Assembly: GCA_913041945.1 (NCBI GenBank)
Contig: CAJWIT010000014.1
Location: 1-33,538, forward strand
Reading direction: 5' to 3'
Source: an uncultured Fidelibacterota bacterium
GTDB taxonomy: Bacteria > Fidelibacterota > Marinisomatia > Marinisomatales > UBA8229
Length of the DNA stretch: 33,538 bases
Positions 3 to 28,910 of the stretch are shown one piece after another. Position 1 is the stretch's first letter; each line of letters starts with the position of its first letter. Below the pieces are notes generated by a model. The model was not told the origin of the DNA. It was given only the letters and a program-made list of their open reading frames with translations, and did no database searches. The translations under genes were made by a program, and so were the position numbers.

Positions 3-1508
3 CTAGGTGATATTTACAATATATGGGGTAGAGGTTTATTATTAAACCAATTTGATAATCAAGGTATTGATATTGATAATGGTCTTACAGGTTTGAATTT
101 TCAATTTAATAATGATAGATATAATTTCAATTTAATATATGGGAAAGCAAATATTTGGAAGTTGGATAGATTAGATTTGCGTATTCCAAGTTACGAAGTA
201 CATCACAATGTATTTGCTTCGGATTTAGAAGTTTTTGTAGAGAACTATACAATTGGTGCTTCATTTTTACAAACGCGAGAAAAGCATCCAGCTTTAGTAA
301 AAATCCCGAATCCTCCATTTTTTAAAGAAGAAACTTTAGGATTAGTTCATCAAATGAAAGGTTTGCGGTTTGAATATCCAAACGACCGGTTTGATATTTA
401 TGGAGAATATGTGGATAAAACTGTTTACCATGAATATGATGATCTTTTGGGAGGTCAGGTTGATTCATTGATTAATAAGGGTAATGGATTTTTCAGTAAT
501 GTGAATCTCTATTTTTGGGACTGGTCGTTTTCGATTGATTATAAGCGTTATAATTTTATTCAGCTTTCCCCCGATAATCGTGGGGATTTTTCAAAAAACT
601 ATGGTGGGGTGACTGATTTCCAGATGCCTCCCATTTCTATGCGGGAGCATTCTTCAACCTTATTAGGGGGGATCAACCATCAGGTGGATTTCAATGATGA
701 AATTGGATATCAAATTGAGGTATTTTGTCCCATTAAAGATTGGTTTACCTTATTAGTAAATTATTCACAAGCAAGCCGGCTTAATATCTGGGAGGGTGCA
801 TTAGGCGAATGGGCCCCAAAATCTAGCGCAGGAGTTTTTCCTTTAACTAATCCAGCTGCGAATCCGTTTCAAGAGATTTATGCAGAAATTGAAGGATACG
901 GATTTGATGGTAACTTTCATTATCAGGTTGGTGCGGGATTTACCAAAGATGTTCCTTCCCTTTGGATAAATAGTAAAACAGATTCAATGCATGAACTGAA
1001 ATATCAGTTAATTAAAGCTGTTACTGTTCCCACTGCTTTTGATGTTTCCTTATCTAACGGCTGGAGTATGGAAATGAAATTGGAATATCAGCAGCTAACG
1101 AATGGCAATTGGGTTTATTTTAAACAGAATAGCGAAGTTGTGGCGGATAGCCTTTATTCAAGCGAGTTTGAGGATGATAAAGAAAAACAGTATAATTCAA
1201 TAGTGAGCATAGGCATAGGCAAGTCACCCACATGGGCTTTATCCCTTATCATTGATGCTGTTTCAGTTGATGAGATAGGGAACCTTGGAGAGAGTGAAAC
1301 AAATCCACTGGAACGATTGATGGGGAATGTTATGGATATTGATAGGAAATGTATTTCTCTGGAGCTGGCTTATAATATTACACCAACACACAGACTTTCA
1401 CTTATGTATGGTACCCAGAGAGGTGGCTTGGTGTGCAGTAACGGGATATGCAGGATAATTCCCCCCTTTGATGATGGATTTAAAGTTAATTTGACTTCGA
1501 TATTCTAA
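3..1508 (+). CDS. Outer-membrane beta-barrel protein, DUF6029-like (5' truncated)
   Basis: The reading frame is open from the left edge of the window, so the gene starts upstream; 501 residues are visible. A TTG at 93 is in frame but is not the start, because homologous-looking sequence (GDIYNIWGRGLLL, then IDNGLTG) precedes it. This opening resembles the GDFYExFGRGL / DNALRG pattern that I associate with DUF6029 proteins of Bacteroidetes and relatives. The rest consists of alternating aromatic/polar strands (for example the segment with YFWDWSFSIDYKRY), with loops rich in Asp and Asn. The protein ends in Phe (NLTSIF), as do many beta-barrels assembled by BAM. I infer an integral outer-membrane protein of unknown substrate. 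It lies 27 bp upstream of an Omp28-like gene on the same strand, which suggests an operon. The family name rests on recollection of the motif, not a search. Confidence 0.72.
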   Translation, partial: LGDIYNIWGRGLLLNQFDNQGIDIDNGLTGLNFQFNNDRYNFNLIYGKANIWKLDRLDLRIPSYEVHHNVFASDLEVFVENYTIGASFLQTREKHPALVKIPNPPFFKEETLGLVHQMKGLRFEYPNDRFDIYGEYVDKTVYHEYDDLLGGQVDSLINKGNGFFSNVNLYFWDWSFSIDYKRYNFIQLSPDNRGDFSKNYGGVTDFQMPPISMREHSSTLLGGINHQVDFNDEIGYQIEVFCPIKDWFTLLVNYSQASRLNIWEGALGEWAPKSSAGVFPLTNPAANPFQEIYAEIEGYGFDGNFHYQVGAGFTKDVPSLWINSKTDSMHELKYQLIKAVTVPTAFDVSLSNGWSMEMKLEYQQLTNGNWVYFKQNSEVVADSLYSSEFEDDKEKQYNSIVSIGIGKSPTWALSLIIDAVSVDEIGNLGESETNPLERLMGNVMDIDRKCISLELAYNITPTHRLSLMYGTQRGGLVCSNGICRIIPPFDDGFKVNLTSIF

Positions 1509-1535
1509 ATTTAGACAAAGAAAATTAAACCAAAT

Positions 1536-2597
1536 ATGAAAGTAAGCAGTATGTATAGAATAATTATAATTGGTTTATTATTTTGTATTTTATCTTTAGT
1601 AAAAGCGCAAGTGGATAGAGATATGGTTATATTGGAAAATTTTGGGGGAACTTGGTGTACAAATTGTCCTGGTGCTGCAATGGGTGCAGAGGATTTAGTA
1701 GCAAATGACCATGATGTAGCTGTGATTGAGTATCATGTTTGGGATGAGTATGCAAATGATTTTTCTCAATTTAGATTTTCCTTATATGAGGCCCTTTATG
1801 CTGACATTGTTGGGGGTCAAATGGCATGTCCTACCGCAGTTTTTGACGGTCAATATTTTTACTTAGGTGGTGATCAAGCATCCAGTTTGTATAGTACTTA
1901 TTTACCATTTTATGAATATTATGAGTCAGTTCTTTCTTCTTTTACCATTGCGATAAACGGAGAAAATACAGGATTGGATTATACAGTTTCAGTAATAGCA
2001 AATAAGGTTGCCTCTACATCCAGTACCAACATTGTGCTTCATTTAGTTCTCACAGAGAGTCAAATAGCAGAAGAATGGCAAGGACAAACTGAGTTAAATT
2101 TTGTGGAAAGGTTAATGATACCAGATCAATATGGAACCGCTCTGGATTTCTCAACTGGAGATACACAGACTGTCGATCTTGAATTTACCCTTGATCTAGG
2201 GTGGGCATCTGGCAATTGTGAACTGGTAGCATTTATTCAGGATAATGATTCAAAAGAAATTTTGCAGGGAACCAAGATTGCATTATCAGAACTTCAGCCT
2301 CTTGCAGTAGATAATTTTTCAAAAAACTTACCCATTTCTTTCCAACTGCAGCAAAATTATCCCAACCCATTCAATGCTTCCACAACCATAGAATATGAAC
2401 TGAAAGAGAACAGACCAGTTAAGCTGTCGATTCTTGATATTAATGGAAGAGAAGTTGACGTCATAGTAAACGATTATCAGACAGCAGGTGAGCATTCGAT
2501 CGCTTGGAGTGGTAAGAATATTCCATCAGGAATTTACTTTATTCGACTTTCATCAAAAGAATTTGTCCAAACCAAAAAAGCAGTATTATTAAAATAA
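1536..2597 (+). CDS. Omp28-like thioredoxin-fold protein with T9SS sorting domain
   Basis: This 353-residue protein has a signal peptide (MYRIIIIGLLFCILSLVKAQ; ATG at 1536, with an alternative ATG five codons later). A thioredoxin-like domain with the redox motif WCTNCP (C41/C44) follows, then a PTAVFDG segment where the cis-Pro loop is expected, then a beta-rich region typical of Omp28-related proteins. The last ~85 residues are a type-A T9SS sorting domain (NYPNPFNAST ... SGIYFIRLSS ... TKKAVLLK). The protein is expected to be exported and attached to, or released from, the cell surface. Unlike most of its neighbours it lacks the WNMVGLPL module. It sits between a beta-barrel gene and a second Omp28-like gene that carries TGA at the position of C41, so it serves as the cysteine-containing comparison for that gene. 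Its partner proteins are unknown. Confidence 0.85.
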   Translation: MKVSSMYRIIIIGLLFCILSLVKAQVDRDMVILENFGGTWCTNCPGAAMGAEDLVANDHDVAVIEYHVWDEYANDFSQFRFSLYEALYADIVGGQMACPTAVFDGQYFYLGGDQASSLYSTYLPFYEYYESVLSSFTIAINGENTGLDYTVSVIANKVASTSSTNIVLHLVLTESQIAEEWQGQTELNFVERLMIPDQYGTALDFSTGDTQTVDLEFTLDLGWASGNCELVAFIQDNDSKEILQGTKIALSELQPLAVDNFSKNLPISFQLQQNYPNPFNASTTIEYELKENRPVKLSILDINGREVDVIVNDYQTAGEHSIAWSGKNIPSGIYFIRLSSKEFVQTKKAVLLK

Positions 2598-2742
2598 TTT
2601 TAATAATATTTCAATACCAGAGATGTCTTAAAGATTGAGTAAATTGCACCTGTTTCACGTTATGAAGTCAATGGGGTAAAATTATTTACGAACTTTCAGA
2701 GAAGAAATTCAAGTCTAGCCAAATAAAATCAAGGGAAATAAA

Positions 2743-4551
2743 ATGAAAAAAATAATGAATGGAATCATGTTGACATTTATTATGTCCACTTCTTTTGCAT
2801 CTCAAACTTTTGTTGTTGGTGAGGTATTTACCGCAACCTGGTGACCCTACTGTCCATCAGCCCGGGCCGGGTTGAACCAAATGATGAATGAATTAGATAA
2901 TTTTGTCCCATTAATTTGGGAGAGTGATGGGCATTTCAGTCCCAACTGCACAGAAAGAGAAAACATGTATGCTGTCAGTGGAATTCCCCACGCTGCATTT
3001 CAGGGTCAGGAAATGATTGTAGGCGGTATAGGCGGAGGAAACATGTACTCTTATTATTTGCCTGTTTATAATCAATTTATACTTAATAATAGTCCAGTTT
3101 ATATGGATATCACCATGCCCACAAATGCTTCTGGAGGGGTTGATATTGAAGTAGACGTAGTGATGACGGGAAACATAAATACTACTAATAATAAAATCCT
3201 CTTTATGCTTACATATTATTATGGTTCAAGCTATTGCGCTACTGTGTCGCGATATCATGAAGAATCCTTTAACTTGAACCTTACAGGCCAGGAAGGATCC
3301 TTCAGCCACAGTTTTGATCTGGATAATTCGTGGGATCTTGAAAATGTAAAAGGAGTAGTTCTCATTCAAACATTTACATCTACGGGAAATGATTATGACG
3401 GATCTTATGGGCCTTATCCAATGTACCCCATTCATCAGGCTGGAATTACGGGGGTTTCTTTGGATCCGGATGTTGAATTAACTCTTATTCATCAGGATGA
3501 TTGGAATATGGTTGGATTACCCCTTGGTATGGAAGATTCAGATTATCTCACTCTTTTCCCGGATGCAATGAATAACACATTGTATTCGTTTGGTGAGGGA
3601 TATGTCCTAGAAACGGAATTGGTGGAAGGTACAGGTTACTGGCTGCGCTTTGATGGGTATGGTTCAACTACCATGATTGGTGATGATTTTGAGGAGATAA
3701 CCATAACACTTGACGAAGACTGGAATATAATTTCCGGTGTTTCAAATCCGGCAGATGTGAATAGTATTTCCGACCCTTATGGAATAATAGTTCCCAATAC
3801 AATCTATTCATTCGGTGAGGGATACAATCTGGCTGATGTCATTGAGCCCGGCTTTGGATATTGGATTCGTTCTTATGGGGAAGGGGATATTACGATCTCC
3901 TCTGATGCAGGGAGCAGGAAATCGAAATTTGTAAATCGTCTTATAGATGCCAATACAATCAGCTTCAATGGTCAAACCCTTTATTTTGGTGTAGAGATCC
4001 CTAAGGAAGAAATCCTGAGTTATAGTTTGCCTCCTAAGCCACCAGCGGGAGCCTTGGATGTTCGTTACACTGGTGACTGGAAAGTTGTACATAATGGTGG
4101 AGAGATTGAAGTGATGAATAACTCAGAGTCATTGAAGATTGATTATTCAATTTATCATGATGTTTATGATTGGGTTCTTATAGATCAATCAACTGGAGAT
4201 GAATATAAATTAAACAGTTCTGGCACCATAGAGATCATCGGTGATGCTGACCGGTTCTCTTTATTGAAGAGGAGTGGTTCTCTACCTGAAAAATACACCC
4301 TTGATCAGAACTATCCAAATCCGTTTAATCCTGTGACCGCAATCAGTTATTCGGTTCCCTCATCCGGTCCTGTCTCATTGAAGGTGTATGATCTTTTAGG
4401 GGAAGAAGTATCTACAGTTGTTGAGGGAGAACATAAGATTGGCTTTTATACCGCACAGTTTGACGGGAGTCATTTATCCTCAGGAGTTTATTTTTACAGG
4501 TTAAGCTCTAAAGATCATACTATCACCAAAAAATTGATTCTCATGAAGTAA
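2743..4551 (+). CDS. Omp28-like protein with in-frame TGA at the redox Cys; candidate UxxC selenoprotein, T9SS substrate
   Basis: ATG 2743 is preceded by AAGGGA and begins a clear signal peptide (MKKIMNGIMLTFIMSTSFAS). The frame then reads EVFTATW, TGA (2842-2844, codon 34), PYCPSARAGL, and stays open to TAA at 4551. Read through, the product has 602 residues. The TGA falls on the first Cys of the WCxxCP motif seen intact in the preceding gene (WCTNCP) and typical of Omp28 proteins; the second Cys (C37) is present. Downstream come the Omp28 beta-region, a WNMVGLPL module (about residues 246-388), the LPPKPPAGALDVR domain and a type-A T9SS sorting domain (about 514-602, NPFNPVT ... LILMK). No other lesion is visible. 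Selenocysteine is the most attractive reading, supported by a hairpin at 2857-2875. A nonsense mutation or sequencing error is the alternative. Conventional gene callers would report only an N-terminally clipped ORF. Confidence 0.72.
2857..2875 (+). promoter_or_regulatory. Bacterial SECIS-like hairpin downstream of TGA 2842
   Basis: Positions 2857-2863 pair with 2869-2875 (seven base pairs, one of them G-U), leaving the five-base loop GGGCC at 2864-2868. The loop begins 19 nt after the TGA. In E. coli fdhF, 18 nt separate the UGA from the GGUCU loop, and bacterial SECIS loops usually have G among their first two bases. The segment is strikingly GC-rich (13 of 14 bases in 2858-2871) for this AT-rich gene, consistent with codon choice constrained by RNA structure. 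Whether SelB would recognise it cannot be judged by eye. Confidence 0.5.
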
Positions 4552-4607
4552 GGCCAGTTGCGTAAATCTTAAAGGAAAGAAGTTTCAATTAAGTTTGAGA
4601 AAAGAGG

Positions 4608-6416
4608 ATGAAGAAATATTATTTATCCTTCCTACTGCTGTTCATCAGCTTTCCTCAATTGAGCGTTGCGCAAACTTTTTCGTTTGATTATGGAGAGACA
4701 TCAGCGGATGTTGATCTAGGCACATATGTCCAGTTTGAAGGATCAATAACAAACACTACTGATTCCCTTATCACTATTGCAGTAGTAAAAAATGTAAATG
4801 AGATACCCGATGGCTGGGCTTCTATGATATGTATTGGAAATTTGTGTTATCCTCCTTATGTAGATTCGGTTACTGCAGATATTGTGGGGATTGATTACAG
4901 CGTATCAATTCAGCCTATTTTTAACCAGAGCTGTACAGGATGTCATGATGGCTCAAACCCAGCAGGTGGATTGAATTTATTATCGTATGAAGATTTAATG
5001 TCTAATAATGTGATTGTTCCTGGTGATCATGAAGCGAGTGAATTGTATGATAGAATTACACGACCCGAATCTTCTAATGGCAACATGCCTCCGGCGGGTT
5101 CGCTGGGACAGGATGAAATCGACCTCATAGCCGATTGGATAGATGAGGGTGCACTAAATGGAGAAAAAACGGCTGATTTTTCTCTTGATGTGGTTGTCCA
5201 GGAGACCGAAGGTATTGGAAATATCCAAATAGCCCTGCTTGATGTGGCATATCCAGAAGAAGCAGTTACCGTAGATTATACGGTTTCAACAACTCAATCG
5301 GAGATGACTCTTACGGTTGACCATTTAATTGACTGGAACATGGTCGGGCTTCCTCTTGTTGTTGAAGATGGAAATGTATCAACAATTTTTCCTGATGCCA
5401 TAAATGGAACTTTATACTCCTTCGGCGTGTCTTATATACTGGAAGAAACCCTTGAAAATGGCAAAGGATACTGGCTTCGCTTTGACGATTCAGGGAGCAG
5501 TGATATCACTGGTGGTGAGATAACTTCTCTTACAATGAGCATGAATGAGGGATGGAACCTAATCTCCGGTATTTCTTCTACTATTTTTCTTGAAAACATA
5601 CTTGATCCTTGGGAAATTATTATTGATGGGACACTCTACGGTTATAATGGTTCTTATCTGTATACAGAGAGTCTGGTCCCTGGAGAAGGCTATTGGCTGC
5701 GGACCAATGATGAGGGGGACATTACTTTGTCCAGCTCACAGCAATCAGCAAGAGCTGTATCCTCTGCAGATAGATTGGACCGGAGTAATAGGCTGGAATT
5801 TGCAAATGGTAATTACACCAATACTTTGTATTTCGGAGAGAACATTCCTGATGAAACCCGCTTAAGTTATAGTTTGCCCCCTGTATTTCCATATATGGCC
5901 TTTGACGCCCGTTTTACTGATAATATGAGGAATACGGAGGATGGAGGGAAGATTCAGGTTATAAACACCAATTCAAGCTTAAACATTCACTATAACATAA
6001 TGATAAATGCAGGGGAACAGAAAGAATGGATTCTTGCTACCGGAGTTGGAGAGGAGTATGTTCTTACAGGAGCGGGAGAGATCACACTTCCTGGAGGTTC
6101 TCAAGAAATGACCTTAGGCAAGAGAACCATTCTTCCTGATAACTATACTCTTCATCAGAACTACCCCAATCCCTTTAATCCAGTGACAACCCTCAGATAT
6201 AGTCTTCCATTTTATGATCATGTAACGCTAACAATATATGATCTTAGCGGGAGAGAGATAAACCAAATAGTCAATACAAGTCAGCCTGCCGGATTCCAAT
6301 CAGTTGTCTGGAATGCTACAGATTATTTCGGTAGATCTGTGGGTGCAGGTGTTTATCTTTACCAGATCCAGGCAGGAGATTTCAAAGATACAAAAAAGAT
6401 GGTACTCCTTAAGTAG
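4608..6416 (+). CDS. Secreted c-type cytochrome-domain protein with WNMVGLPL module and T9SS sorting domain
   Basis: This 602-residue protein has a signal peptide (MKKYYLSFLLLFISFPQLSVAQ). Residues ~23-95 are a beta-sandwich ending in CIGNLCYPPYVDS. A compact cytochrome c domain follows, with heme motif CTGCH at 109-113 and a likely axial Met at 160 in NMPPAG. It resembles the small cytochromes fused to surface proteins in Planctomycetes and FCB bacteria. After the cytochrome the beta-sandwich seems to resume (TADFSLDVVV ... EGIGNIQIALLD). The module occupies about 233-375, and a LPPVFPYMAFDARF domain and the sorting domain (NPFNPVTTL ... KKMVLLK) complete it. The expected role is extracellular or surface electron transfer, with heme attached in the periplasm before T9SS export; the redox partner is unknown. 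The gene is 56 bp after the candidate selenoprotein and ends at a strong terminator. Confidence 0.85.
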   Translation: MKKYYLSFLLLFISFPQLSVAQTFSFDYGETSADVDLGTYVQFEGSITNTTDSLITIAVVKNVNEIPDGWASMICIGNLCYPPYVDSVTADIVGIDYSVSIQPIFNQSCTGCHDGSNPAGGLNLLSYEDLMSNNVIVPGDHEASELYDRITRPESSNGNMPPAGSLGQDEIDLIADWIDEGALNGEKTADFSLDVVVQETEGIGNIQIALLDVAYPEEAVTVDYTVSTTQSEMTLTVDHLIDWNMVGLPLVVEDGNVSTIFPDAINGTLYSFGVSYILEETLENGKGYWLRFDDSGSSDITGGEITSLTMSMNEGWNLISGISSTIFLENILDPWEIIIDGTLYGYNGSYLYTESLVPGEGYWLRTNDEGDITLSSSQQSARAVSSADRLDRSNRLEFANGNYTNTLYFGENIPDETRLSYSLPPVFPYMAFDARFTDNMRNTEDGGKIQVINTNSSLNIHYNIMINAGEQKEWILATGVGEEYVLTGAGEITLPGGSQEMTLGKRTILPDNYTLHQNYPNPFNPVTTLRYSLPFYDHVTLTIYDLSGREINQIVNTSQPAGFQSVVWNATDYFGRSVGAGVYLYQIQAGDFKDTKKMVLLK

Positions 6417-15752: not shown

Positions 15753-16844
15753 TTGCGAAATATCTTTCAGATCAAAAAAGGCTCAATTGGTAGATTCTCT
15801 TTTATACTTTTATTATTAGTATATTTCTCACCGCTGTATTCCCTCACAGGTTATCTTCGTGAAGCGGAGGCATCGTGGTGTATGGATCTCTGCTCACATT
15901 ATTACTTGGAAAACGAATCTGGAGATTTTATAACTTGGGTTACTCAATTGGATAACCTGGAAATTCTGGACCTCTATATTCACAGGTTTGTGGAAATTGA
16001 AGGTGAGGAATTTGAGTGTGTGGAATGCACTGCAATAAATGTATCGTCTATTTCCATATCTGATGAGTGTGAATTCCCGGTAGAATGTTTCGCTGATCCC
16101 TGTGAAGTAGGGGAGTGCCCTGCCTACCCGGAAGCGGAATGTGTAGCAAATTACTGCGATGGGTGCTGGGCTGATTTTTATATCAATGGTGAATTACTGG
16201 ATTGTTCTTCAAATCTTGAGTGTATTGACCTTACGGGGATTGATTTCGGTAATTGTGATATGGCTTTGGGAATTGGCTGGAGTGAGGAAGAATGTCAATA
16301 TCTTTCCGGATGCGACTGGGTTGTGAATGGTGTGGATTATTCCGATGCATTCTTTACTACCATGGAGGAGTGCTATGCTGTCTGTTCTGCAACACCACCG
16401 CAAGAAAGTATCTCTATTGACTATCTTTCAGACTGGAATCTCGTGGGCCTGCCTCTTGAAGTGGAAGATGCATCATATAGCACCTTATTTCCTGAGTCAA
16501 TCGAAGGGACGCTTTATTTTTTTGATAATGGCTATATGGCTCAATCATATCTTTTTCATGGTGAAGGATACTGGTTACGGTTTCCCGATCCTGGAATTAG
16601 TATCATTACCGGTTTTCCAATCAGTGAACTTACAATTAGCCTGAATGAAGGATGGAATCTGATCTCTGGTATTTCAGAATCGATTGCTATTGGAGATATT
16701 TCTGACCCATCCACTATAATAGTGGGTGGCACTATCTATGGATTTGGGAATGATGGTTATTCTCAGGTAGATACATTGGAACCCGGGGGAGGATATTGGG
16801 TACGTGCAAACAACCCAGGAAATATAATTTTAACGAGTAACTGA
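15753..16844 (+). CDS. Secreted Cys-rich protein with WNMVGLPL module, 3' end decayed
   Basis: The start is a TTG 15 bp after the carboxypeptidase stop; no in-frame ATG lies between them, and a hydrophobic signal segment (RFSFILLLLVYFSPLYS) follows, so the TTG start with possible translational coupling is the best choice. The mature part is Cys-rich. It has a beta region (CMDLCSHYYLE ... FVEIEGEEFECVEC), a knot-like stretch (DPCEVGECPAYPEAECVANY, then CDGCWADFYINGELLDC) and a third Cys cluster (EECQYLSGCDWVV). No enzyme signature is visible. The module (~220-363) ends the protein at TGA 16844. The next 300 bp hold remnants of the domain and sorting signal that follow the module in sister genes, so the protein has probably lost its T9SS signal. 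It may be a decaying gene or a functional shortened form. Confidence 0.7.
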   Translation: MRNIFQIKKGSIGRFSFILLLLVYFSPLYSLTGYLREAEASWCMDLCSHYYLENESGDFITWVTQLDNLEILDLYIHRFVEIEGEEFECVECTAINVSSISISDECEFPVECFADPCEVGECPAYPEAECVANYCDGCWADFYINGELLDCSSNLECIDLTGIDFGNCDMALGIGWSEEECQYLSGCDWVVNGVDYSDAFFTTMEECYAVCSATPPQESISIDYLSDWNLVGLPLEVEDASYSTLFPESIEGTLYFFDNGYMAQSYLFHGEGYWLRFPDPGISIITGFPISELTISLNEGWNLISGISESIAIGDISDPSTIIVGGTIYGFGNDGYSQVDTLEPGGGYWVRANNPGNIILTSN

Positions 16845-17254: not shown

Positions 17255-20200
17255 ATGAACAGAGTGAGTTGTTTGCTTTTGATTGCCATTCGTTTTTTGC
17301 TGGCGAACGACATTCAAAATGTACAGACACCGATTACCCCTCAATTATCTGAGGAATTATCCCGGACAAATTCGGAGTCTTTTATCAGGATTAATATTGT
17401 GATGAAAGAACAAATTGATTCAGATATTTTGTATTCGAATGTGCAGGGTTTGTCAAAAGCAAATCGGCGTCAATTTGTTATAAACGAACTTAAATATTTT
17501 GCTCAAAATACTCAGGGTGATATATTAAATCAGCTTTCCACCCTAGAAAATACAGGGCAGGTCAAAGATGTAACTTCCTTATGGATTACTAATGTAATTA
17601 ATTGTTACGCCACTCCTGAGGCAATTAAAACACTTTCAAGTAGATCCGATGTTCATCGTATTGACCATGATGAAAAAAGGAAAATGTTAATAGATACTCC
17701 GCAGGATATGGCAGCCATTTCAAATTCCGATAGAGACCGTGAAATAACCTGGAATGTAACAATTGTAAACGCAGACGATGTCTGGGCGTTGGGATATACC
17801 GGTGATGGGGCGTTGGTTGCAGTGATTGACACGGGTGTGAACTACGATCATGTGGATTTACAGGATCACATGTGGGGTGGACTTTTTTATCCAAATCATG
17901 GGTATGATTTCGCTAATAATGATAACAATCCCATGGATGATCATGGTCATGGAACACATTGTGCGGGAACGGTTGCCGGAGATGGAACAGCAGGGTCTCA
18001 AACCGGAATGGCTCCTGATGCGAAAATTATGGCTTTAAAGGTACTGGATTCAGGAGGGAGTGGAGCAGAGTCCGATTGTTGGGAAGCTATTCAATTCTGT
18101 GTCGATATGAATGTTGATGTTATGAGTTTCTCTTTAGGATGGCTGCATGCTTGGGGGCCGGATCGGTCCAGTTGGAGGGATGCAATGAATAATGCCTTGT
18201 TTGCTGGTGTCATAGCTTCAATTGCAGCAGGGAATGAAGGTGGAGACCAAGGTTCATATCCAATTCCAGATAACGTCCGTACTCCAGGAGATATCCCACC
18301 GCCATGGCTCCATCCTGATCAAACTCTGACAGGGGGGATTTCTGCCGTAGTGTGTGTTGGCGCAACCAATAGCAGCGATAATATTGCTTCTTTTTCCAGT
18401 CGCGGTCCTGTCACATGGGAAAGCATCAGTCCATTTAACGATTATGCTTATAGTCCCGGCATGGGATTGATTCGTCCAGATATTTCTGCTCCAGGGGAAA
18501 ATATAAAATCACTTGCCCATTACAGCAACACAGGATATGAAAGTGGATGGTCGGGAACCTCCATGGCTACTCCCTGTGTAGCTGGTGTTATTGCTTTGAT
18601 GCTTTCCAAGGATAATTCGTTGACTCCCGAACAAATAAATCAGACTCTGGAGGAGACTGCTCTGGATTTAGGGAGTAATGGAAAAGATAATACTTATGGC
18701 TCTGGAAGAGTTGATGCCCTGGAAGCTGTAAATGCAATATTTACAGAACCAATACCGCCTTATCCTCCCTACAATCCTAACCCAGCTGATGGTCAGGGAT
18801 TTGTCAATGTAGGATCGAATCTTTCCTGGTCAAATGGAGGTGGGGCTACATCATATTTGGTATTTATAGGTACGGATAATCCCCCAACCAATATTGTGAA
18901 TGGTGATTTATCAAGTTCAAGTTCCTATATGTTGAGTGGTTTAGACTTTTCCACCCATTATTTTTGGAATATAATTGCCATGAATGATTATGGAGAAACA
19001 GTGGGACCCGTATGGGATTTCACCACTGTAGGTCCACCGGATGAAGACTTTGAATCCGGAGATTTCAGTCAGAATGATTGGGCATTCGGTGGGAATGCTG
19101 ATTGGATTATTGACAGCAGTAATCCTTATAACGGTACCTACTCCGCCCAATCTGGTGATATTGATCATAGTGAAACTTCTCAGTTGATTATTACTTTAGA
19201 TGTTATATACGATGGAAATATTGATTTCAATTATAGAGTGGCATCTGAATACAGCCCAACCGGTACCAATTTTTATGATGGATTAGTATTTTACATTGAT
19301 GATCAGCAAATGGGGCAATATCAGCCTACAACAGATGGTGGGACACCCTGGGTTTTTGCCAGTTTTCCAGTGACTGTTGGGCCCCATACATTTAAGTGGT
19401 CTTTTGAAAAGGATGAGGGTCCTGGGTCAACTGATATGGAAGAGGATTGTACCTGGCTGGACGATATTACCTTTCCTCCAACAGAAGAACCATCCAGCGA
19501 TATTACTGTAGAATATTTGTCTGATTGGAATATTGTAGGTTTACCAATGGAAGTGAGTGATGCAGGTTTTGAATCACTTTTTCCCGATGCTATTGAAAAT
19601 ACGTTATTTTCCTTTGGAGTGAATGGATATATTCCAGAAACAGAATTAACCATGGGAACAGGATACTGGTTGAGATTTTCAAATGAAAATATGACCACCA
19701 TCAGTGGCTCCTACGTTGAGAATTTAACAATCTCATTACAGGAAAACTGGAATTTAATTTCTGGTATCTCTGCAGATTTTGCCTTGGATAATATTCTTGA
19801 CCCGGATAATTTGATCATTCCCCTTACATCGTTTGGTTTTGGTGGAAATGGGTATTTCGCTGTTGAAACATTGGAACCAGGACATGGCTATTGGGTTCGA
19901 TCCTATGGTGCAGGTGAAATTACCATTTCAAGTTTAGCAAGAGAGAAATCACGGCAAATAATTGAGAATCGTGTCAGTGAAGCTAATGTTATCGCATTTA
20001 ATGGATTTCCCCTCTATTTCGGGGTAGATATCCCTGAGAGTGAAATATTGAGTTATAGTTTGCCTCCCAAGCCGCCGGCAGGAGTGTTTGACGTTCGATT
20101 TACTGGTGGGTGGAGAGTTGTTGAAAATGAAGGACGAATTGAATACTTCAATCCCCAAAGCGATTTAAGTGTTCACTATCAAGTGAATGACAATGAACGT

Positions 20201-20590
20201 TGGATTTTGATCGGTGATGATGGAAATGAATATAAACTCACAGGAAATGGTGATTTTATGATACCGGATCAATCAGGAACTTTTTCACTAAAAAAATCTT
20301 CTATATCGCCGGATCAGTACTTATTATCTCAAAATTTTCCCAATCCGTTTAATCCTGTGACAACCATCACCTACGAATTGTCTCAGGAATCGTATATTTC
20401 TCTCGAGGTGTATAATATGAATGGTCAACAGGTAACCAGTTTAGCTTCCAAAAGCCAGAAAGCAGGGAAGTACACAGTGCAATGGGATGGCACTGATCTG
20501 AATGGCCATAAAGTATCCAGTGGTATATACCTTTACAAATTGGAAACCCCTGATTTTACAAATATCAGAAAAATGGTTCTCATGAAATGA
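17255..20590 (+). CDS. S8 subtilisin-family serine protease, multidomain, T9SS substrate
   Basis: This 1111-residue protein has a signal peptide (MNRVSCLLLIAIRFLLA). An I9-like inhibitory propeptide (~35-140) precedes the S8 domain (~170-500). The triad is D192 (VIDTGVNY), H232 (DHGHGTHCAG) and S436 (SGTSMATPC), complete and in order. A fibronectin-III-like domain (~505-590) follows. A MAM-like domain (~597-745), the WNMVGLPL module (here DWNIVGLPM, ~750-893), the LPPKPPAGVFDVRF domain and a type-A sorting domain (~1020-1111, NFPNPFNPVTT ... KMVLMK) complete it. The MAM-like domain is the same long-loop subtype as in the M14 carboxypeptidase. The stop is TGA at exactly the conserved LMK end, which shows that TGA is a normal terminator in this genome. 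Expected role: extracellular endopeptidase. Confidence 0.93.
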   Translation: MNRVSCLLLIAIRFLLANDIQNVQTPITPQLSEELSRTNSESFIRINIVMKEQIDSDILYSNVQGLSKANRRQFVINELKYFAQNTQGDILNQLSTLENTGQVKDVTSLWITNVINCYATPEAIKTLSSRSDVHRIDHDEKRKMLIDTPQDMAAISNSDRDREITWNVTIVNADDVWALGYTGDGALVAVIDTGVNYDHVDLQDHMWGGLFYPNHGYDFANNDNNPMDDHGHGTHCAGTVAGDGTAGSQTGMAPDAKIMALKVLDSGGSGAESDCWEAIQFCVDMNVDVMSFSLGWLHAWGPDRSSWRDAMNNALFAGVIASIAAGNEGGDQGSYPIPDNVRTPGDIPPPWLHPDQTLTGGISAVVCVGATNSSDNIASFSSRGPVTWESISPFNDYAYSPGMGLIRPDISAPGENIKSLAHYSNTGYESGWSGTSMATPCVAGVIALMLSKDNSLTPEQINQTLEETALDLGSNGKDNTYGSGRVDALEAVNAIFTEPIPPYPPYNPNPADGQGFVNVGSNLSWSNGGGATSYLVFIGTDNPPTNIVNGDLSSSSSYMLSGLDFSTHYFWNIIAMNDYGETVGPVWDFTTVGPPDEDFESGDFSQNDWAFGGNADWIIDSSNPYNGTYSAQSGDIDHSETSQLIITLDVIYDGNIDFNYRVASEYSPTGTNFYDGLVFYIDDQQMGQYQPTTDGGTPWVFASFPVTVGPHTFKWSFEKDEGPGSTDMEEDCTWLDDITFPPTEEPSSDITVEYLSDWNIVGLPMEVSDAGFESLFPDAIENTLFSFGVNGYIPETELTMGTGYWLRFSNENMTTISGSYVENLTISLQENWNLISGISADFALDNILDPDNLIIPLTSFGFGGNGYFAVETLEPGHGYWVRSYGAGEITISSLAREKSRQIIENRVSEANVIAFNGFPLYFGVDIPESEILSYSLPPKPPAGVFDVRFTGGWRVVENEGRIEYFNPQSDLSVHYQVNDNERWILIGDDGNEYKLTGNGDFMIPDQSGTFSLKKSSISPDQYLLSQNFPNPFNPVTTITYELSQESYISLEVYNMNGQQVTSLASKSQKAGKYTVQWDGTDLNGHKVSSGIYLYKLETPDFTNIRKMVLMK

Positions 20591-27725: not shown

Positions 27726-28910
27726 ATGAAATTGAAAAATATCATAAATTTATCATTATTTGTGCTGACGTATGCATATTCAATAAGCCTGTATGATGTT
27801 TATGTGCAAGCAGGACCTGCCTACGGTTATGACAGGTACATAGTGTTAGATCCGAATTTTATTTATACAGGAGGAATCGGCTCAGGTGAGGAATCTATCT
27901 ATATTCAAGGAAATGGCGCTGTGATTGATTTGTTGGAGGGCACTGGCATATGGATTGCCGGCGATAGCAACAACAATATCACTGGCTCCCTTGATATTGA
28001 TCGTTGTACTATAGTAAATGGTGGTTCATACGGAATTAATTTATCCGGCTACTCAACAAATTCCATCACAAATTGTAATCTGATTAATGTTCACTGGGGA
28101 ATTCAAGTCAATGACGATATTCATGCTACCATCATAAACTGTAATCTAATAGACAATACATACGGATTAGCACTAGTTGGAGAGGATACTAACGTGGAGC
28201 TTTCCTATTGTAATGCCTGGAATAATGATTACAATTATATGCTGAATTGCGTTGGGTGAGGGACGATTTGGGCAGAGTGTCTGCCTGAGCCAGGTACCGG
28301 GAATATTTTTGAAAATCCTCAATTCATAAATCCCAATGAGTATCAGTTTTCTTATGATCCTGCATCTCCCTGCATCGATACTGGTGACCCTGAATATGAA
28401 GACCCTGATGGAACCAGGATCGATATTGGAGCAAATTATTTCAATCAGTCTGAAGAAATAATATCACTGGGAATTGATTGTTTTTCTGGATGGAATATGA
28501 TTGGTCTACCGGTTCAGGTGGATAATAGCGGATATCTAAACCTTTTTGATAATGCAGTTGAAAACACATTATTTTCTTTTGGAGAAAACGGCAGTTATAT
28601 ACAGGAAGAAATGCTTACACCAGGGACTGGATATTGGCTCAGGATGACGGATGAATATGTTCAGGATTTTTCAGGCGAGCAAATTTCTGAAGTGACTGTT
28701 AATCTTGTTGAAGGATGGAACCTGATTTCAGGTATTTCATATCCAATTAATGTGGATGCAGTAATTGATCCGGATGGACTTCTCATTCCCAATACAATCT
28801 ATGAATATTTTGGGGGAGGTTATGTCACTGTATCTTCAATTGGACCTGGTAAAGGGTACTGGGTGAGATCTTTAGGAAATGGAACTATTTCTATTGTCTT
28901 TGAAAGATAA
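27726..28910 (+). CDS. Beta-helix-like secreted protein interrupted by in-frame TGA, with WNMVGLPL module
   Basis: ATG 27726 has AAGG upstream and begins a signal peptide (MKLKNIINLSLFVLTYAYSIS). Residues ~20-240 contain repeated strand/turn units (ITNCNLINVHWGIQV, IINCNLIDNTYGLAL, VELSYCNAWNN) typical of right-handed parallel beta-helix surface proteins. They continue with the usual closing segment (FENPQFINP ... SPCIDTGDPEYEDPDG). The frame is continuous from 27726 to TAA 28910 except for TGA at 28257-28259 (codon 178), after which translation resumes with no shift. The context is NCVG-TGA-GT, so a selenocysteine would make CxxU. A hairpin follows at SECIS-like distance. A nonsense mutation is at least as likely. 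The module (~247-394) ends the protein, with no sorting domain. If the TGA terminates, the module would be lost and the 177-residue product would stop within the helix. Confidence 0.65.
28271..28285 (+). promoter_or_regulatory. Hairpin 17 nt downstream of in-frame TGA 28257, possible SECIS
   Basis: GGCAGA (28271-28276) pairs perfectly with TCTGCC (28280-28285) around the loop GTG; weaker, partly wobble pairs could extend the stem outward. The loop begins 17 nt after the TGA and starts with G, both within the usual bacterial SECIS range. The three-base loop is tight, and the coding context gives less support than for the hairpin at 2857. Confidence 0.3.

Follow-up and report, generated by a model that had tools for sequence, protein, structure and literature searches.

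The locus and its in-frame TGA

The window, by which we mean the whole stretch of 33,538 nucleotides analysed here, carries two adjacent paralogous genes near its start, the first with a cysteine and the second with an in-frame TGA at matching positions. Their features are given below, all on the + strand; scores refer among others to the NCBIfam model NF045500, named "Omp28-related selenoprotein."

1536 to 2597, +: sister gene, Cys form (WCTNCP), with a type IX secretion system (T9SS) tail above cut-off; PF11551 34.3 bits, NF045500 67 bits
2743 to 4551, +: predicted selenoprotein gene, 602 residues if the TGA at 2842-2844 is selenocysteine (U34); open on either side
2743 to 3480, +: signal-like N terminus and Omp28/thioredoxin-like domain; NF045500 match below its cut-off, profile and fold matches to thioredoxin and HBP35
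2842 to 2844, +: TGA read as selenocysteine, the U of U-P-Y-C; aligns with the sister's Cys and with the TGAs of the clade
2851 to 2853, +: TGT, putative resolving Cys of UxxC (C37); invariant in the alignments
2857 to 2875, +: predicted bacterial SECIS hairpin with an 8-bp stem; the GGC loop of 3 nt occupies 2865-2867, at a distance of 20 nt from the UGA
3490 to 4290 (limits approximate), +: linker and "WNMVGLPL" repeat module; many matches in the same genome, common to many secreted proteins
4312 to 4539, +: T9SS type A C-terminal sorting domain; TIGR04183 8.4e-13 and PF18962 1.1e-11, both above cut-off

In translation, the second gene starts with ATG and a signal-like N terminus, reads VVGEVFTATW-TGA-PYCPSARAGL and continues through 568 open codons to a TAA, so that the TGA at 2842-2844 is its sole in-frame stop. 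The sister has a cysteine at the matching residue (GGTW-C41-TNCP). An earlier reading of these letters (the sequence-only reading) had described a single TGA in an otherwise intact gene, at the place where the sister protein has the first Cys of CxxC, and both translation and alignment bear this out. A scan of the whole window gave 11 TGAs that are preceded by 30 or more open codons and followed by 70 or more. A hairpin conforming to the SECIS model, at -10 kcal/mol or better, lies behind only two of the 11 (those at 2842 and 28257), which places the TGA at 2842 beyond chance. It very probably encodes selenocysteine in a thioredoxin-like surface protein of this Marinimicrobia bacterium. Ordinary annotation truncates such genes by placing the start after the UGA, with loss of the signal peptide and the active site.

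Most open reading frames between 2743 and 30354 of the window share the module WNMVGLPL...GTGYWLRF...GEITIS, which has 77 matches in the window's genome. One of the proteins with this module at its end is a secreted Cys-rich protein encoded at 15753-16844 (CFADPCEVGECPAYPEAECVANYCDGCWADFY). A phage search gave no match.

Conservation of the TGA among relatives

The repeat and T9SS modules dominated a search with the whole protein, and we therefore used the N-terminal domain alone as the query. With its profiles we searched 130 genomes from the order and 245 from the phylum, each species being represented by one genome and the sequences being mostly metagenome-assembled genomes (MAGs). The distinct genes with CxxCP or UxxCP were then read codon by codon, giving 51 rows: 44 Sec genes, 5 Cys homologues and 2 unrelated or remote sequences. 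Within the coding part of the Sec genes, TGA occurs solely at the Sec codon, any extra TGAs either preceding the start or standing at the gene's end. A maximum-likelihood tree separates three groups: the clade of the window gene, with 12 Sec rows and 1 Cys row (support 100/99); a Cys group of 4 rows that includes the neighbor gene 1536-2597 (100/99); and a larger Sec group of 32 rows (97/97), which includes a gene passing NF045500 (L043).

In the window clade, 11 further genes from other genera and families have TGA at the same codon. Three of them (L072, L073, and L074) share 54, 52, and 41% identity with the window protein over the domain and have the TGA in the same alignment column. Because this column recurs across genera, the TGA can be put down neither to a sequencing error nor to a recent nonsense mutation. 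The sole Cys member (L111) comes from a Cloacimonadota MAG (JASUTE010000014.1, TGC codon near 4072). Relatives have either TGA or a Cys codon at this position, and no further lesion was seen in the near relatives; both had been proposed as checks by the sequence-only reading. The replacement of CxxC by UxxC that it put forward is likewise supported; the sister and the Cloacimonadota relative have Cys there.

This distribution bears directly on the possibility that the TGA is a real stop in a decaying pseudogene. TGA does mean stop in the standard code, and the downstream frame could begin at an internal TTG (2872). Yet a TGA at the same codon, with no other lesion, recurs in the 12 genes of the clade, from several families, and in dozens of genes of the NF045500 clade, and protein similarity extends on either side of it. 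We rejected this explanation, whose probability we regard as negligible, because the TGA is conserved in independent genomes.

More distant thioredoxin-like secreted relatives, with UPTC, UPSC, UPYC, and UTYC, were seen in four further genomes. These proteins (L077, L125, L127, and L128) have the TGA at the same place, some of them come from other families of the phylum, and we read them as candidates for further Sec subfamilies. Separately, genomes of one family (f14; L122, L133, L124, and genome G116) carry several Omp28-type selenoprotein genes each, some clustered on one contig, which we read as an expansion of selenoproteins.

A SECIS-like hairpin behind the TGA

The published model of the bacterial SECIS element (bSECIS; PMC13188914) has a stem of 4 to 16 bp, a loop of 3 to 9 nt with G in the first two loop positions, a spacing of 16 to 37 nt and a minimum free energy of -7.5 kcal/mol or lower. 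The hairpin at 2857-2875 lies within all these limits, with its 8 bp, GGC loop, 20-nt distance and -10.7 kcal/mol when folded alone (-12.3 for the 43-nt fold). We compared it with 1000 to 5000 synonymous recodings drawn from the window's codon usage, which gave p = 0.002, and an equally good hairpin stands behind only 13 of the 7609 codons in the window's reading frames. Against dinucleotide shuffles the hairpin alone is not unusual (z = -0.97); such z-scores are unremarkable for the hairpins of both genes discussed here, and we do not count them as support. What sets the hairpin apart is its position and the comparison with synonymous recodings.

The same recoding test gave p < 0.05 for most of the related Sec genes and 0.19 to 0.34 for four Cys paralogues, values that are not independent of each other and should not be multiplied. 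The Cys relative from Cloacimonadota retains a similar SECIS-like hairpin (p = 0.022), perhaps a relic of a change from Sec to Cys, so a hairpin alone is no proof of selenocysteine. In the NF045500 clade, the hairpin has its loop GUU at 20-22 and shows paired changes. Covariation across 27 sequences was 0.325, versus 0.139 when shuffled; one slid control (-2) exceeded the observed score, and covariation is therefore not decisive alone.

A complete selenocysteine system in the same genome

The assembly that holds the window has 1.83 Mb in 119 contigs and is about 87% complete. It encodes SelA (435 bits) and, adjoining it, a reading frame that we assigned to SelB by sequence and position rather than by model score. 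It also has a tRNA-Sec (63 bits versus a gathering score of 47, anticodon TCA according to ARAGORN) and SelD (387 bits), the latter itself a Sec form whose gene has an in-frame UGA in GUACKI. The occurrence of SelA, SelB, tRNA-Sec, and SelD in one genome amounts to a complete Sec system, precisely the machinery that the sequence-only reading had proposed to look for. Together with the TGA or Cys found in relatives and the lack of further lesions, it supports the selenoprotein claim. A clear TGA form is present in 27 genomes of the order (a hand count from two tables that omits G013). A strong SelA accompanies it in 25 of them, the exceptions being one genome without SelA that is 77% complete (G096) and one with a weak SelA match that is 64% complete (G121); since most of the order commonly has SelA, this co-occurrence is modest evidence.

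These observations also leave next to no room for a genome-wide reassignment of UGA to Trp or Gly (tables 4 or 25), which does occur in other bacteria: we rejected it because TGA normally ends other genes of the window (e.g., 17255-20590 and 15753-16844), no more than two of the long coding frames contain an internal TGA and each of these has a SECIS-like hairpin, the aligned residue of homologues is Cys rather than Trp or Gly, and the genome has the full Sec machinery. One could also propose that the UGA is a programmed regulatory stop, which mostly terminates translation and yields a little full-length product by low-level reading as Trp or Cys. Some read-through of UGA is general, and the insertion of selenocysteine itself competes with termination. 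However, this proposal leaves unexplained the exchange between Cys and UGA in a redox motif, the SECIS geometry and the presence of the Sec machinery, and we consider it very improbable.

Fold, export, and proposed function

The profile of the N-terminal domain matches thioredoxins in the PDB in alignments that pair up the CxxC region, 1fo5 being the best (E = 4e-8 over profile positions 15-94); it also matches Atu2684 and, at 3.7e-4, HBP35. An AlphaFold model built from six sequences reached a mean pLDDT of 58.5 and a pTM of 0.63, and its top Foldseek match was again HBP35 (E = 8e-5). The pLDDT is below 50 over much of residues 24-102, and the weakness of the model in this thioredoxin part means that the support for the fold comes mainly from the sequence profiles. 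The lower fold matches, to potassium channels and arrestins, were set aside, as they probably reflect the beta-sandwich part only. After the UxxC there is a conserved Pro (GIP/ALP) where thioredoxins have their cis-proline, and which may well be its counterpart. At the other end of the protein, TIGR04183 scores 48.1 bits versus a cut-off of 23. The translocon was checked through SprA, whose gene scores above cut-off in the same genome. Hence, the thioredoxin-like domain and the T9SS-type tail that had been proposed from the letters alone are both supported, the former by the PDB profile matches to thioredoxins and HBP35, the latter by TIGR04183 and PF18962.

These elements suggest how the gene could work. 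The hairpin at 2857-2875 would hold the SelB/Sec-tRNA complex, which would insert selenocysteine at the UGA at 2842-2844 instead of allowing termination, as the machinery, the hairpin, and the conservation of the codon suggest. Guided by its signal peptide, the protein would then cross the inner membrane, after which its C-terminal domain would pass it to the T9SS for placement on or outside the cell surface. There, the N-terminal domain could serve as a thiol/disulfide oxidoreductase in which the selenolate of U34 attacks a disulfide or an oxidized substrate and C37 resolves the selenylsulfide. The best functional model would thus be a surface thiol/disulfide oxidoreductase resembling HBP35.

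The main competitor to this function accepts a real selenoprotein and proposes that the domain is not a redox one, its Sec or Cys binding metal or haem at the surface. HBP35 also binds hemin, and the domain-model libraries that we searched gave no enzymatic name for the domain. The UxxC at the position of the thioredoxin active site, and the conserved Pro at what appears to be the cis-proline place, argue against such a role, which we consider unlikely, if clearly less so than the readings in which the UGA is not selenocysteine. We are highly confident that the gene encodes a secreted selenoprotein, a putative thiol/disulfide oxidoreductase exported by the T9SS, and that it represents a new subfamily within the known Omp28-related selenoproteins. 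The window clade would then be a case of an uncultured marine phylum spending selenium on redox proteins exported to the surface. The presence of adjacent Sec and Cys paralogues in one genome makes it testable what Sec buys outside the cell.

A second candidate selenoprotein

The other TGA of the window followed by a SECIS-model hairpin lies in a gene of a different type, again on the + strand.

27726 to 28910, +: candidate selenoprotein, a secreted right-handed beta-helix protein; 394 residues if the TGA is Sec
28257 to 28259, +: in-frame TGA, motif N-C-V-G-U-G (CxxU; C175, U178)
28267 to 28289, +: predicted SECIS hairpin of 10 bp (-10.6 kcal/mol); its GUG loop occupies 28277-28279, at a distance of 17 nt from the UGA

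The protein has a signal-like start, a beta-helix region and a WNMIGLPV module. It matches PF13229 (32.1 bits versus a cut-off of 25.9) and has no NCBIfam match even at E = 10. In the class and the phylum, our searches returned 30 strong matches, counting the window gene itself, and every one of them contains a single internal TGA. The site reads C-x-G-U-G in 29 of the 30 and NCLT-U-G in the thirtieth, a gene from another part of the phylum. These searches yielded no Cys orthologue; weaker beta-helix matches lacking the TGA were discarded as generic, with partial coverage of the profile. The hairpin of the family has its loop GU(G/U/A) at 18-20 and shows changes on both sides in 5 of 6 pairs. 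Its covariation is 0.548, versus 0.154 when shuffled and at most 0.187 in slid controls, and the recoding test gave p = 0.007 for the window gene.

A beta-helix protein is absent from Table 1 of a 2026 review, which covers 119 prokaryotic selenoprotein families, and our literature search found no beta-helix selenoprotein. We thus think it probable that the window encodes two secreted selenoproteins and that this gene founds an undescribed family: a beta-helix protein with a signal peptide and a covarying SECIS, whose conserved N-C-x-G-U-G lies where the helix ends and which was seen solely in Sec form, in 30 genomes of the phylum. It would then add a scaffold missing from the 2026 list, with selenium on a solenoid outside the inner membrane, apart from the thioredoxin-type and metal-cofactor folds.

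Comparison with known systems

Selenocysteine-containing thioredoxins and the DsbA-like and DsbG-like selenoproteins resemble the window protein in having UxxC, thioredoxin-like folds and a bSECIS just downstream of the UGA, and they belong to other families. The 2026 review covering them contains neither the term "T9SS" nor the term "secreted." The link with the Omp28 family (PF11551 and NF033782) is closest for the Cys sister at 1536-2597, just under the PF11551 cut-off of 34.9 bits; the window selenoprotein differs in having no PF11551 match.

The nearest characterized model is HBP35 of Porphyromonas gingivalis (PDB 5y1a), which also has a thioredoxin-like domain in a T9SS-exported protein. 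According to two reports on it (PMC2907840 and PMC3120885), its thioredoxin activity needs its two active-site cysteines and it reaches the surface by the Por/T9SS route. In contrast with the window protein, its active site has Cys and no selenium, and the identity in the fold alignment is 14%.

The closest relatives are the proteins of NF045500, which the 2026 review equates with the hypothetical protein GOS_C. GOS_C comes from a 2008 study of ocean metagenomes (PLoS Genet 2008, PMC2398784), which reported 74 Sec sequences of it and assigned it a UxxC motif and a Trx-like fold. The sequence-only reading had regarded an Omp28 selenoprotein as new; this does not hold, and the novelty is confined to the subfamily, even if our literature search found no paper linking a selenoprotein with Omp28. 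The two groups share the Omp28/thioredoxin-like domain with Sec first in UxxC, a marine origin, the existence of Cys homologues and a SECIS-like hairpin at a corresponding place behind the UGA. The window selenoprotein scores 74.8 bits against NF045500 and five public members of its clade score 37 to 70, far under the curated cut-off of 200, so by this measure they are not members, though clearly relatives; two genes from sister species (L042 and L043) score 311 and 304 bits, and no gene above the cut-off was found in the window's genome. The window clade also differs in its separate place in the tree (100/99) and in its hairpin, mostly shifted by at least one base (loop GGC at 21-23 in the window gene versus GUU at 20-22). 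Finally, a T9SS tail is present in all five full-length members of the window clade that we checked, whereas most members of the NF045500 clade end otherwise and four have similar tails. By these sequence comparisons, the window clade forms a separate, well-supported, T9SS-tailed group and thereby a new subfamily within the Omp28-related selenoproteins already known.
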